From Limibacillus halophilus (lineage in GTDB: Bacteria > Pseudomonadota > Alphaproteobacteria > Kiloniellales > CECT-8803), in assembly GCF_014191775.1 (NCBI RefSeq), contig NZ_JACHXA010000002.1, positions 310,001 through 374,000 on the forward strand: a stretch of DNA of 64,000 bases, in the 5' to 3' direction. This document shows, piece by piece, positions 13,612 to 23,000 of this stretch. Each line of letters opens with the position of its first letter. The first letter of the stretch is position 1. The notes beneath the pieces are model-generated. The model did no database searches. It was not told where the DNA came from and saw only the letters and a list, made by a program, of their open reading frames with translations. Both the position numbers and the translations under genes were made by a program.

Positions 13612-14703
13612 TCAGCCAGCAACATCCGAACTACTGTCGTCCGCATCTCCCTCACCACCGCCGGGGCCTTCCAGCATGGCAATCGCAACGATCCCGGCAT
13701 TCTCCCGGATGCGCTGTTCGATCGTTCTCGCTATTTCGGGATTGTCTTGCATGAACTGTTTGGCGTTCTCCCGGCCCTGACCGATGCGTTGGCCGTCGTA
13801 AGAGAACCAGGAGCCCGACTTTTCGATGATGTTGGCCTGTACGCCCAAATCGATCAACTCACCTGTCTTTGAGATGCCCTGACCGTACATGATGTCGAAC
13901 TCCACCACCCGGAAGGGCGGCGCCACTTTGTTCTTCACCACCTTAACCCGGGTTTGGTTGCCGACAATATCACCCTTGTCCTTCACGGCACCAATACGGC
14001 GGATATCAAGGCGAACCGAGGCGTAGAATTTCAAGGCATTGCCGCCGGACGTCGTCTCGGGGCTACCAAACATGACACCGATCTTCATACGCAGTTGGTT
14101 GATGAAGATCACCAGCGTGTTGGACCGCGCTATAGACGCTGTCAATTTACGCAGCGCCTGGCTCATGAGCCGTGCCTGAAGGCCGGGTTGCTGATCACCC
14201 ATATCGCCCTCCAGTTCCACCCGGGGCACCAGGGCCGCAACCGAATCGATCACCAACACGTCAACCGCGCCCGAGCGCACAAGCGTATCGGTAATCTCCA
14301 ATGCCTGTTCGCCGGCATCGGGCTGCGAGATCAGCAGTTCTTCGATATTGACTCCGAGTTTTGCCGCATAGGCCGGGTCCAGCGCATGCTCCGCATCGAC
14401 AAATGCGCAAGTGCCCCCCTTCTTTTGGGCCTCTGCGATCGCCTGCAATGCGAGGGTTGTTTTACCGGAGCTTTCCGGCCCAAAGATTTCAACGACCCTG
14501 CCCCGAGGCAGCCCGCCGATGCCCAATGCTATATCCAGACCCAGCGAACCGGTCGAGATCGCCTCTATCTCAACGGCCTCCTGTTGACCGAGACGCATAA
14601 TCGATCCCTTACCGAAGGCGCGCTCAATCTGGCTCAGCGCGGCATCCAGGGCTTTGTTTTTATCCACGGTTCCTCCTTCAACGACGCGCAAATTATTCTG
14701 CAT
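13612..14703 (-). CDS. recA: RecA recombinase
   Basis: 363 residues. RecA forms ATP-dependent filaments on single-stranded DNA for homologous recombination and triggers LexA self-cleavage. Walker A is [12 protein letters not shown], Walker B lies in [12 protein letters not shown], and the L1/L2 DNA-binding region and [14 protein letters not shown] are intact; the tail is acidic ([11 protein letters not shown]) as usual. ATG 14703 starts [11 protein letters not shown], ahead of the conserved [20 protein letters not shown]. The 212-base gap to the divergent patatin gene holds an SOS-like element at 14808-14819. Confidence 0.97.
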
Positions 14704-14819: not shown

Positions 14820-14915
14820 ATTTGGCGTTAGTCGATAACATTTCGCCATGTCGACTACGGCCTTTCATACAGTCCCTGCTAGAGTCGATTCGTGCTGCAG
14901 ATCTGGAGTGAGTCG

Positions 14916-16667
14916 ATGTCATCCGTGCGAGACCGTCTGGCAAAAAAACTGCGTCTCCTTGGTATCTTTGCTAACTGCGATGAAGCCACGCTTCAGGGCA
15001 TTGCAGAGCGATCTCAATGGCTTTCGGTTCCCGGCGGTCGGTTGCTGATAGAACAAGGCGAGCAAGCTGAAGCCGTTTTCGTGTTGCTTTCCGGCCGCCT
15101 TGCCGTGATCACCGGGTTTGGAACCTCCGAGGAACGCTTGGTAACGGAAATCAGCGCCGGCGATAGCGTGGGCGAGTTGGGAGTAATTGCCTCGACCCGT
15201 CGTTCAGCAAGTGTCCTCGCGCTGCGGGACAGTGAGTTGCTTCGTATTCCCGGCGATGTGCTGAAACCGCTGATTGCAAGCGATCCGGCCGCCTTTGACG
15301 GGCTCTTACAAACGCTTGCCCAGCGCCTGCTCCGCCTGACACGGGGTAAGCCGGTGCAGCGTATGGTCCGCAACCTGGCGCTGCTACCCCTGGATGACGC
15401 AAGTCCCTGGCCCGACATCGCCATGCGTCTGCAAAGGAGTGCTCAGACTATCGGTTTGAGGTGCCACATCTTTACCGAGGCTGATGGGTCTCGCGACAGC
15501 AATCAGTTCGCCGAAATGGAAGAAAACTTCGATCTTTGCCTTTATCTGGCAACCAAGGCCGACGATACCTGGCGCAGACTCTGCAAACGCCAAGCCGACC
15601 GCCTGTTGCTGCTTGCCAGCGGCACGGACAAGGGTCGAAGCGCCCGCCCCCCTGACAACCACTTGATCGGCGATCGCAGACCCGTGGATATGGCTATTTG
15701 CGAGGCGGCCGATTTAGAGCTTCCGACACCATCCCGTAATTGGCCGGTCGCCCTGGCCGCTACACGATGGGTTCATCGCCTTAGAGAGAACAATGACCAG
15801 GACTACAGCCGTCTGGTTCGGTTGATGAAGAATCAAGGCCAGTGCCTCGTCCTCTCCGGAGGCGGCGCACGCGGGTTTGCCCATGTCGGCGTGCAGCGCG
15901 CGTTGCAGGAAGCAGGTCGCTCGCTCGATCTTCTGGGTGGCTCCAGCATGGGTGCGATCGTGGCCGCGGGTATTGCCCTGGAATGGGACAGCAACGATCT
16001 TGAGTCGCGCCTTGCCAAGGTCTTCGTCGAAGGGCGCCCGACCAGCGATTTGACCTTTCCCATCGTCGCCCTTCTGCGAGGCCGCCGGGTTTCGCACTAT
16101 CTGAAATCGCATTTTGCGGACTTGGAGATGCAAGACCTTTGGCGCCCTTGCTATAGCGTGGCAACCGACCTACGCAGCGGCGAACCAATCATGCAAACCA
16201 AAGGGTCATTATGGCGGAACTTGCGTGCCAGCGTGGCCATTCCCGGCCTGCTACCGCCGGTCCCCACGGAACAACACTTGCTGGCCGACGGCGGTGTCGT
16301 CGATAATTTACCAGTCGGGTTCCTACTCGATCCGCCGCAAGGCCACATCATCGCAGTCGATGTCGCGCAGGATGCCGCCCTTAGATGCGATTTTCTAGCG
16401 GAGGAACTGGAAGCGCCATTCTGGCGTCTGTGGCCACGCGTGCGTCGCGGCCGGCTTCCGGGAATCTTCGATATTCTCCTACGCGCGGGAACCATAAACA
16501 GCAGCCGCCAGCGTAAGGAGGTGCTGGAAAAAGTAGATCTTTGGCTCGCGCCGCCGTTGGAAGAGATCGGCGTGCTGCAATGGGCTGCATTTCACCGCGC
16601 TGTCGAGATTGGCCATCGCTATGCCTGCCAGCAACTTGAAATCTGCGACCGGGAGCAAACCGAGTGA
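14916..16667 (+). CDS. Cyclic-nucleotide-binding domain / patatin-like phospholipase (NTE family)
   Basis: 583 residues. The N-terminal 130 residues form a cNMP-binding/Crp-like fold (LIEQGEQAEAVFVLLSGRLA; SVGELGVIASTRRSASVLAL). A linker region follows, then a patatin lipase domain from about residue 305: oxyanion motif SGGGARGFAHVG, nucleophile elbow GSSMG, and catalytic DGGVVDNLP. This is the neuropathy-target-esterase layout, a membrane-associated lysophospholipase or phospholipase possibly gated by a nucleotide. ATG 14916 is preferred over GTG 14892 because GGAGTGAG sits 4 bases ahead. It is convergent with the CckA-like gene with no gap. Confidence 0.88.
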   Translation: MSSVRDRLAKKLRLLGIFANCDEATLQGIAERSQWLSVPGGRLLIEQGEQAEAVFVLLSGRLAVITGFGTSEERLVTEISAGDSVGELGVIASTRRSASVLALRDSELLRIPGDVLKPLIASDPAAFDGLLQTLAQRLLRLTRGKPVQRMVRNLALLPLDDASPWPDIAMRLQRSAQTIGLRCHIFTEADGSRDSNQFAEMEENFDLCLYLATKADDTWRRLCKRQADRLLLLASGTDKGRSARPPDNHLIGDRRPVDMAICEAADLELPTPSRNWPVALAATRWVHRLRENNDQDYSRLVRLMKNQGQCLVLSGGGARGFAHVGVQRALQEAGRSLDLLGGSSMGAIVAAGIALEWDSNDLESRLAKVFVEGRPTSDLTFPIVALLRGRRVSHYLKSHFADLEMQDLWRPCYSVATDLRSGEPIMQTKGSLWRNLRASVAIPGLLPPVPTEQHLLADGGVVDNLPVGFLLDPPQGHIIAVDVAQDAALRCDFLAEELEAPFWRLWPRVRRGRLPGIFDILLRAGTINSSRQRKEVLEKVDLWLAPPLEEIGVLQWAAFHRAVEIGHRYACQQLEICDREQTE

Positions 16668-17384
16668 TCAAGCGGCGATGCTAAGCTGCCCGCGCACATG
16701 ATCCAGCAGTTGTTTCAACGCAAAAGGCTTTGGCAGGAAGCCCGCCTCGCCTCGGCTGATCAGGTCAAAGGCGATCCTGTCATCACAATAACCCGAGATG
16801 AGCAGGACCCGCAGACGAGGGCGCAGGAGTCGTGCCCGTTGGATAAGGCTGGCGCCGTCTAGGACCGGCATGGATAAATCCGTTACAAGCAGGTGAAACG
16901 ATGCCGGGCGCATCTGAAACACGTCCCAGGCATCGACGCCGGATGCGCAGGCCGTCACGTGATAGCCCGCCCGGCGCAGCGCCAAAGATGCACAACTGCG
17001 AACCGAATCGTCGTCCTCGGCAAGGAGAACACGGATGGCCCCGCTCTGCGCCGCATCATTCATTTCCTTTTCTTGCTCTTCGTCCAGGGCTCCGTTTTGC
17101 TGAACCGCTTCGGTCAGCAGGGCACGATCGCTGCTGGCGGTTAGGCGCCTGAGAATGTGAGCCGCACGCTCGGCCTCCTTGCGAATCGTATCCAATTCCT
17201 GCTCGTCATCCATGTCACACTGCATTCTGCCACGCAGAATCTCTGTCGAACCCATGATGGACGTAAGTACATTGTTGAAGTCATGCGCGAGTTCATCGGC
17301 GAGCTTTGTAAAGGCGGCTCGATGCTCCCATTGAGGTTCGGCCACTACATGGGGGGCTTGGTCTGTTTCCTTGAAACCTGACAT
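16668..17384 (-). CDS. CckA-like H-box plus receiver-domain protein lacking the ATPase domain
   Basis: 238 residues from ATG 17384, which has AGGAGA upstream; a longer reading to 17489 adds a hydrophobic stretch without a ribosome site. Residues 25-90 are a dimerisation/phosphoacceptor helix hairpin with the motif ELAHDFNNVLTSI (His34), like the hybrid kinase CckA. The catalytic HATPase domain is absent: a 25-residue acidic linker leads straight to a receiver domain (residues 116-238) with acidic pocket E123-D125, phosphoacceptor Asp169 in VTDLSMPVLDG, and Lys219 in LPKPF. The protein could accept or pass phosphate but not phosphorylate itself. It lies between recA/patatin and dksA-ctrA. Confidence 0.82.
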   Translation of the reverse strand: MSGFKETDQAPHVVAEPQWEHRAAFTKLADELAHDFNNVLTSIMGSTEILRGRMQCDMDDEQELDTIRKEAERAAHILRRLTASSDRALLTEAVQQNGALDEEQEKEMNDAAQSGAIRVLLAEDDDSVRSCASLALRRAGYHVTACASGVDAWDVFQMRPASFHLLVTDLSMPVLDGASLIQRARLLRPRLRVLLISGYCDDRIAFDLISRGEAGFLPKPFALKQLLDHVRGQLSIAA

Positions 17385-17536: not shown

Positions 17537-17956
17537 TCAGTCGTCTCGCTGCGTGCGTTCCATCCGCTCGTGCCGTTCCTGCGCTTCTATCGAAAGCGTA
17601 GCAATTGGCCTGGCTTCCAATCGGCGTAGGCTGATCGGCTCATCGGTTTCTTCGCAATAACCGTAAGTGCCGTCCTCGATCCGCTGCAAAGCCATGTCTA
17701 TCTTTGCTATTAACTTACGCTCGCGGTCGCGAGTCCGAAGTTCTAGCGATCGATCGGTTTCAAGCGACGCGCGATCAGCTATGTCCGCTTCCTGCAGGCT
17801 TTCGGATTGAAGATGTTGAAGCGTTTCTTCAGATTCTCGTAATAGTTCGCCGCGCCAAGCCAACAGTTTACGGCGAAAATACTCCCGCATGACCGGATTC
17901 ATGAAGTCCTCGTCATCGGAAGGTCGGTAGTCGGGTGAAGCAGTAATAGATGACAT
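17537..17956 (-). CDS. dksA: DksA/TraR family RNA polymerase-binding factor (single-cysteine type)
   Basis: 139 residues. A long N-terminal coiled coil (about residues 25-100) carries the tip region DIADRASLETDRSLELRTRDR, and the C-terminal globular part has YGYCEETDEPISLRRLEARP followed by ATLSIEAQERHE. DksA binds RNA polymerase and, with ppGpp, adjusts transcription during starvation. Only one of the four usual zinc cysteines remains, the form seen in many alphaproteobacteria. It is divergent from ctrA across a 304-base gap that holds the CtrA box. Confidence 0.88.
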   Translation of the reverse strand: MSSITASPDYRPSDDEDFMNPVMREYFRRKLLAWRGELLRESEETLQHLQSESLQEADIADRASLETDRSLELRTRDRERKLIAKIDMALQRIEDGTYGYCEETDEPISLRRLEARPIATLSIEAQERHERMERTQRDD

Positions 17957-18037: not shown

Positions 18038-18052
18038 TTAAGCAGTTGTTAA
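18038..18052. promoter_or_regulatory. ctrA: CtrA box in the dksA-ctrA intergenic region
   Basis: TTAA-GCAGTTG-TTAA is an exact match to the CtrA consensus TTAA-N7-TTAA. It lies 209 bases upstream of ctrA and 82 bases upstream of the divergent dksA start. Two GANTC sites, the target of the cell-cycle methylase CcrM, flank it (18029-18033 and 18158-18162), and a TTAA-TATA-TTAA palindrome lies at 18220-18231. Together they suggest CtrA autoregulation as in Caulobacter, and possibly CtrA control of dksA. Nothing else is seen in this 304-base gap. Confidence 0.7.
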
Positions 18053-22346: not shown

Positions 22347-23000
22347 TCAGGGCTGCGAAAACACGTCCTTGCCGACATCGAGCGAAAAGACGACACAGCC
22401 CTCTTCCTGATCATCCACCGAAACATCGGCGCCGCATTCCGCGGCAAGAAGACGACAAAACACGCTTTGGATATTGCGGGTCGTGAGTTCCGAGTCCGGC
22501 AGGTCCCGGTTCAAACCTTCACGCGCTTCCGGTCGGACCCTGGCGCCTTCACCAATTGCCAGGATCGCGACCTGATGGCGACTCTCGGCGGCCAGAACCT
22601 CCACGGTCAGTGAGCCGCCACGCGGCAAACTTTCCTCAGCTACGACCAACAGGTTGAGCAGGAGCTTGGTTGAATTGGAGGACATCGGGTCGTTGTAGGT
22701 CTCGTCCGACCAGTTCAAACTGATGCGGTGCCCCTTGAAGTAGTTCTCCACATGGCTTTTCAGGTCTGTGCCACCCGGGCCCGCACGCTCAACAGCGGTC
22801 CCATAGGCCAGACGAAAAAACTGCAAAATTCGGGCTGCCGAATCGGCACTATCGATGGCCAGTTGCGCCGCCTCTTCCATAAGGTCTGGCGAAGCGCCAC
22901 CAAGCATTTCCAATCCGTTGTTGCATGCCCCTATCGGATTGACCAATTCATGGCATAACCGCGCACAAAGCAATTCGGCAACCCGTAAGGATGCAATCAT
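22347..23000 (-). CDS. chpT: Histidine phosphotransferase ChpT
   Basis: 217 residues. ChpT shuttles phosphate from CckA to CtrA and CpdR. The first helix carries the phosphoacceptor in LLCARLCHELVNPIGA (His17), aligned with the Caulobacter RLCHDFISPASA pattern; the C-terminal half is a degenerate HATPase-like fold (KLLLNLLVVAEESLPRGGSL) without the ATP-binding G-boxes, as in known ChpT. ATG 23000 immediately precedes the helical hairpin. It lies downstream of the iron binding-protein promoter on the same strand, in the same chromosomal neighbourhood as ctrA. Confidence 0.88.
   Translation of the reverse strand: MIASLRVAELLCARLCHELVNPIGACNNGLEMLGGASPDLMEEAAQLAIDSADSAARILQFFRLAYGTAVERAGPGGTDLKSHVENYFKGHRISLNWSDETYNDPMSSNSTKLLLNLLVVAEESLPRGGSLTVEVLAAESRHQVAILAIGEGARVRPEAREGLNRDLPDSELTTRNIQSVFCRLLAAECGADVSVDDQEEGCVVFSLDVGKDVFSQP

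Follow-up and report, generated by a model that had tools for sequence, protein, structure and literature searches.

We found that the window, by which we mean the whole stretch of 64,000 nucleotides that was analysed, encodes a kinase-less form of CckA (hereafter mini-CckA) which we consider, at a probability of about 90%, to be the cckA gene of its family (f1), reduced in place. The CckA-ChpT-CtrA pathway is normally headed by the kinase CckA. In comparison with CckA, mini-CckA has lost the CA/HATPase domain and everything N-terminal to the DHp, including the membrane and PAS sensor regions. The identification is based on synteny, on the similarity of the DHp and the receiver, and on the fact that no canonical CckA was found at any other place in the genome; the protein was assigned as a reduced CckA orthologue because neither the HATPase nor the sensor of a CckA kinase was found in it. 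Below, G000 denotes the genome of the window and G001 the other f1-family genome examined, which belongs to another genus.

The mini-CckA open reading frame is intact (16671-17384, minus strand, stop codon at 16668-16670, 238 aa) and starts with an ATG at 17384, directly preceded by an AAGGAG ribosome site. Its parts are:
16668..17384, minus strand: mini-CckA A (kinase-less CckA), consisting of HisKA/DHp, linker and receiver, as supported by Pfam, AlphaFold (AF2) and its place in the cckA slot 5' of recA
17127..17339, minus strand: DHp/HisKA hairpin, aa 16-86, with H34-D35-F36-N37-N38 (HDFNN)
16692..17030, minus strand: receiver, aa 119-231

An earlier sequence-only reading had described an HDFNN H-box hairpin (His34) joined to a receiver (Asp169, Lys219) with no HATPase domain, and the Pfam search and residue check bear this out. 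HisKA (PF00512) matched aa 28-81 (E 9.3e-9, 35.7 bits against a cut-off of 26.9) and Response_reg matched aa 119-231 (E 2.3e-18), while the Pfam search of the protein returned no HATPase_c at E ≤ 1 and no PAS domain. A transmembrane region is also absent, with only 33 residues lying ahead of His34. The receiver residues D124/D125, D169, S197-G-Y199 and K219 are all intact. With a linker of just ~30 residues between the DHp and the receiver, a HATPase domain could not be hidden there, and without an ATP-binding domain mini-CckA cannot autophosphorylate. A frameshift or assembly error concealing such a domain was ruled out by this lack of room in the DNA and by the same architecture occurring in a second genus. 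AlphaFold predicted a two-helix hairpin (18-53/58-96) at a pLDDT of about 70 and, with confidence, the receiver (118-235), the linker between them being disordered. In FoldSeek the receiver aligned to that of CckA (6TNE) with a target TM of 0.92; the best 50 matches cover the receiver alone and so carry no information on the hairpin.

The gene lies among the following features of the window:
13612..14703, minus strand: recA (TIGR02012, 574.8 bits), the 3' neighbour of cckA in order-mates
14892..16667, plus strand: cNMP-binding, NTE-like patatin phospholipase, between mini-CckA and recA
17537..17956, minus strand: dksA (TIGR02420, 146.8 bits), the upstream neighbour of mini-CckA on the same strand
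18038..18052, plus strand: CtrA-box-like site between dksA and ctrA, a perfect TTAA-N7-TTAA
18255..18980, plus strand: ctrA, intact (NF045991, 388.9 bits, cut-off 350)
22347..23000, minus strand: chpT, histidine phosphotransferase with the H-box ARLCHEL (PF10090, 95.6-97 bits, cut-off 22.9)

The distances given previously, ~0.9 kb from ctrA and ~2 kb from recA, are correct. Among 28 CckA loci of order-mates (L010-L037), tblastn placed recA next to the gene in 24. In the six order-mates whose surroundings were compared, cckA was 5' of recA on the same strand; it directly adjoined recA in five, the sixth (G037) having a gap of ~2.8 kb. Beyond recA, alaS was present in five of these six and icd in four, with the remaining alaS and icd either outside the stretch compared or unmatched. 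The icd-alaS-recA-cckA block is common to G000 and G001, and mini-CckA occupies the cckA slot. The patatin-like phospholipase gene, which sits tail-to-tail between mini-CckA and recA, was inserted before recA in G000 alone and is absent at the G001 locus.

The best NCBIfam models for mini-CckA were the two CckA models, each with a cut-off of 1000 bits, which matched in two stretches and scored 139.9 and 113.4 bits; the higher score, from NF046020, was strongest over the receiver and is below the equivalog cut-off. In comparisons with the DHp, the canonical CckA of order-mates scored 96-106, the hybrid kinases of the two f1 genomes 55-80 and one myxobacterial hybrid kinase 121. By sequence, the best solved structure was the Caulobacter CckA receiver 6TNE (E 4.7e-18), which rules out an unrelated receiver family. 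Mini-CckA has no PF10090 (ChpT/HPTransfase) domain, ChpT being encoded by a separate gene, and it has His34 at the phospho-His position, unlike the DivL pseudokinase, which has Tyr. Together with the synteny and the absence of canonical CckA elsewhere, these similarities support the previous suggestion that the gene is a shortened remnant of an ancestral cckA.

Both f1 genomes also contain a paralogue of mini-CckA A, which adjoins a gene read as ftsZ in each:
G000, C3:68535-69110 (L048:10437-11123): paralogue B
G001, C7:24100-24588 (L047:9089-9802): paralogue B

Paralogue B has an intact receiver but has lost the H-box; of its DHp, the last part of helix 2 (IRxxA...ILRR) is all that remains. 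The receivers of A and B cluster together in the receiver tree (support 0.92), which does not separate CckA from CpdR ancestry for the mini-CckA receiver. No CpdR was detected in G000 or G001, where the best matches to the CpdR model were mini-CckA A, with the top score of 87 bits, and paralogue B, whereas CpdR scored 179-185 bits in the searched order-mates of families f4, f5 and f7. Paralogue B could be a stand-in for CpdR. The mini-CckA receiver itself begins with RVLLAEDDDS, similar to CpdR; a scan with the pattern RVLLAEDD listed 80 loci, nearly all of them CpdR-like receiver-only proteins, because the pattern is degenerate. It is conceivable on these grounds that mini-CckA acts through its receiver only, as a CpdR-like or Osp-like protein (proteolysis adaptor or kinase inhibitor) with the DHp as a dimerising tail, and the loss of the H-box from a receiver-bearing paralogue would fit such a role. 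We consider this unlikely, since the CckA models outscore CpdR on mini-CckA (139.9 vs 86.2 bits; the CpdR matches, at 86.2-87.4 bits, compare with a threshold of 180), and since mini-CckA also carries HisKA, with HDFNN conserved in group A.

We searched for a full-length CckA elsewhere and found none in G000, where the best model scores were 341 and 318 bits, or in G001, where the best was <300 bits (E 3.4e-81), whereas canonical copies in order-mates reach 603-773 bits. The best scores in both genomes are no higher than those of generic hybrid kinases from these order-mates. Among order-mates the canonical CckA cores share 64-98% identity, and the best kinases of G000 share only ~41% with them. 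The idea that mini-CckA competes with a full-length CckA thus fails, as the search found no such protein. Canonical CckA was likewise absent from G006 and G013 (family f6) and from the incomplete MAG G036.

G001, the only other f1-family species examined, has an orthologue built in the same way, from HDFNN and a receiver, so that mini-CckA is not an assembly error. Outside the f1 family, no further members were found in a search of 61 genomes of the order, nor in 385 genomes sampled over the class, in which the six best candidates per genome were scored; only two orthologues are known.

Between G000 and G001, mini-CckA A has a dN of 0.43 and a dS of about 2.3, which is near saturation. Its receiver is 65.6% identical between the two genera, with a dN of 0.31, comparable to that of chpT (0.30), while ctrA has a dN of 0.07. 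Judged by these rates, mini-CckA is under purifying selection (dN/dS well below 1) and is therefore maintained, though evolving faster than ctrA. This agrees with the earlier argument for function rather than decay. The extent of the loss relative to CckA and the already degenerate DHp of paralogue B could instead be taken to mean that mini-CckA is a functionless remnant being slowly lost; with an open frame and active-site residues kept across two genera at near-saturated dS, and a receiver as constrained as chpT, we regard this as very improbable.

Both genomes have intact ChpT and CtrA genes, which in the f1 family are clustered with dksA. The perfect TTAA-N7-TTAA site between dksA and ctrA has a counterpart at the same place in G001 (L046:7877-7891), each being the sole perfect site in its stretch; 5' of mini-CckA itself there is at best a site with one mismatch, which is chance level. 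FliF (flagellar base) was searched for in four genomes, G000, G001 and the two f6 genomes, and was absent from all of them. Given this scope, we only suggest that loss of cckA may follow loss of the flagellum. In G006 and G013 canonical CckA and FliF are thus both missing, and G006 also lacks ChpT.

The architecture, the locus, the lack of a canonical CckA, the selection and the retained ChpT and CtrA provide the basis for considering what mini-CckA does. In line with the phosphatase-like sink suggested previously, the most likely mechanism, to which we would give about an even chance, is that of an ATP-independent phosphate drain or phosphatase acting via ChpT on CtrA. A soluble mini-CckA dimer would draw phosphate back from CtrA~P via ChpT onto D169; N38 of the DHp would promote hydrolysis of D169~P, and H34 may briefly hold the phosphate. 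Mini-CckA would then be a CckA locked in the phosphatase/drain direction, keeping CtrA largely unphosphorylated and shielded from stray phosphorylation in bacteria in which no FliF was found. In the H-E/D-x-x-T/N motif of HisKA domains, according to PMC3510030, T/N is needed for phosphatase and E/D for kinase activity, and the DHp of EnvZ or NtrB alone is enough for phosphatase activity, with a constitutive-phosphatase phenotype. The FxSGY motif of the CckA receiver, which has been proposed to function in phosphotransfer with ChpT (PMC9981736), has the counterpart LISGY in mini-CckA.

Several points count against a drain. The kinase-specific D35, which would be superfluous in a pure phosphatase, is kept in both orthologues; any CtrA~P that formed would require some donor to load ChpT; the receiver tree leaves CckA and CpdR ancestry unseparated; and only two orthologues are known. 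Because D35 is retained, loading of H34 in trans has to be considered, and one kinase is a candidate for it:
G000, C8:62395-64065 (L053:4393-6066), and G001, C52:14564-15880: membrane histidine kinase of HEFNN type, with an OmpR-type regulator next to it in convergent orientation

This was the one HEFNN kinase for which the two f1 genomes proved to share close orthologues (59%, with generic matches of 28-45% in the order-mates searched). In such a split-kinase arrangement, H34 would be phosphorylated by the CA domain of a different HisKA kinase, and phosphate would pass to D169, ChpT and CtrA, making mini-CckA a forward donor, in keeping with the conservation of both H34 and D35 and with the need of ChpT for a donor. 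We think this less likely than the drain: in G000 and G001 alike the HEFNN kinase adjoins an OmpR-type regulator of its own, trans-phosphorylation among different kinases is uncommon, and an orphan CckA-type CA protein was not seen in the HATPase list. It is more doubtful that mini-CckA is a His-Asp relay, loaded in trans and still driving CtrA, for which the H-less paralogue provides a second output. G000 also has a cluster of three hybrid kinases with HDFNN, lying within 20 kb (C3:89709-109313, L040-L042), for which a close G001 counterpart was not found; they are possibly a lineage-specific expansion.

In the f1 lineage ChpT and CtrA persist, and at the unchanged chromosomal position of cckA the ATPase half has been dropped while the half that accepts phosphate is retained. 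This amounts to a natural separation-of-function experiment, asking if the phosphatase/relay direction of CckA alone is worth keeping, and it lets one ask how CtrA operates without the CckA kinase. In the literature searched we found no earlier report of a CckA without its kinase domain, while surveys including Rhodospirillales have noted reduced or missing cckA/chpT (PMC8116508, PMC2877005).

With the CckA hybrid histidine kinase (Caulobacter/Brucella type, NF046026/NF046020), mini-CckA shares the HDFNN DHp, the CckA-type receiver (ISGY ... FLPKPFALKQL), the position beside recA seen in order-mates and the presence of the partners ChpT and CtrA, but it is without HATPase/CA, transmembrane and PAS sensor regions. 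Osp and CpdR are, like mini-CckA, small soluble receiver proteins on the CckA pathway; however, they have no HisKA hairpin, and Osp inhibits CckA, which the f1 genomes lack. The short DivL of Rhodobacterales (PMC9430884, PMC2877005) is likewise a CtrA-pathway protein which has lost its (pseudo)kinase domain in one lineage, and DivL without the pseudokinase part sets a precedent within this pathway (PMC9430884); short DivL retains PAS without the kinase part, whereas mini-CckA retains the parts that accept phosphate, without PAS and CA. The isolated EnvZ and NtrB DHp pieces, cited in PMC3510030 as sufficient for phosphatase activity, resemble mini-CckA in being HisKA hairpins without CA, but those are laboratory constructs, whereas mini-CckA is natural and has its own receiver.
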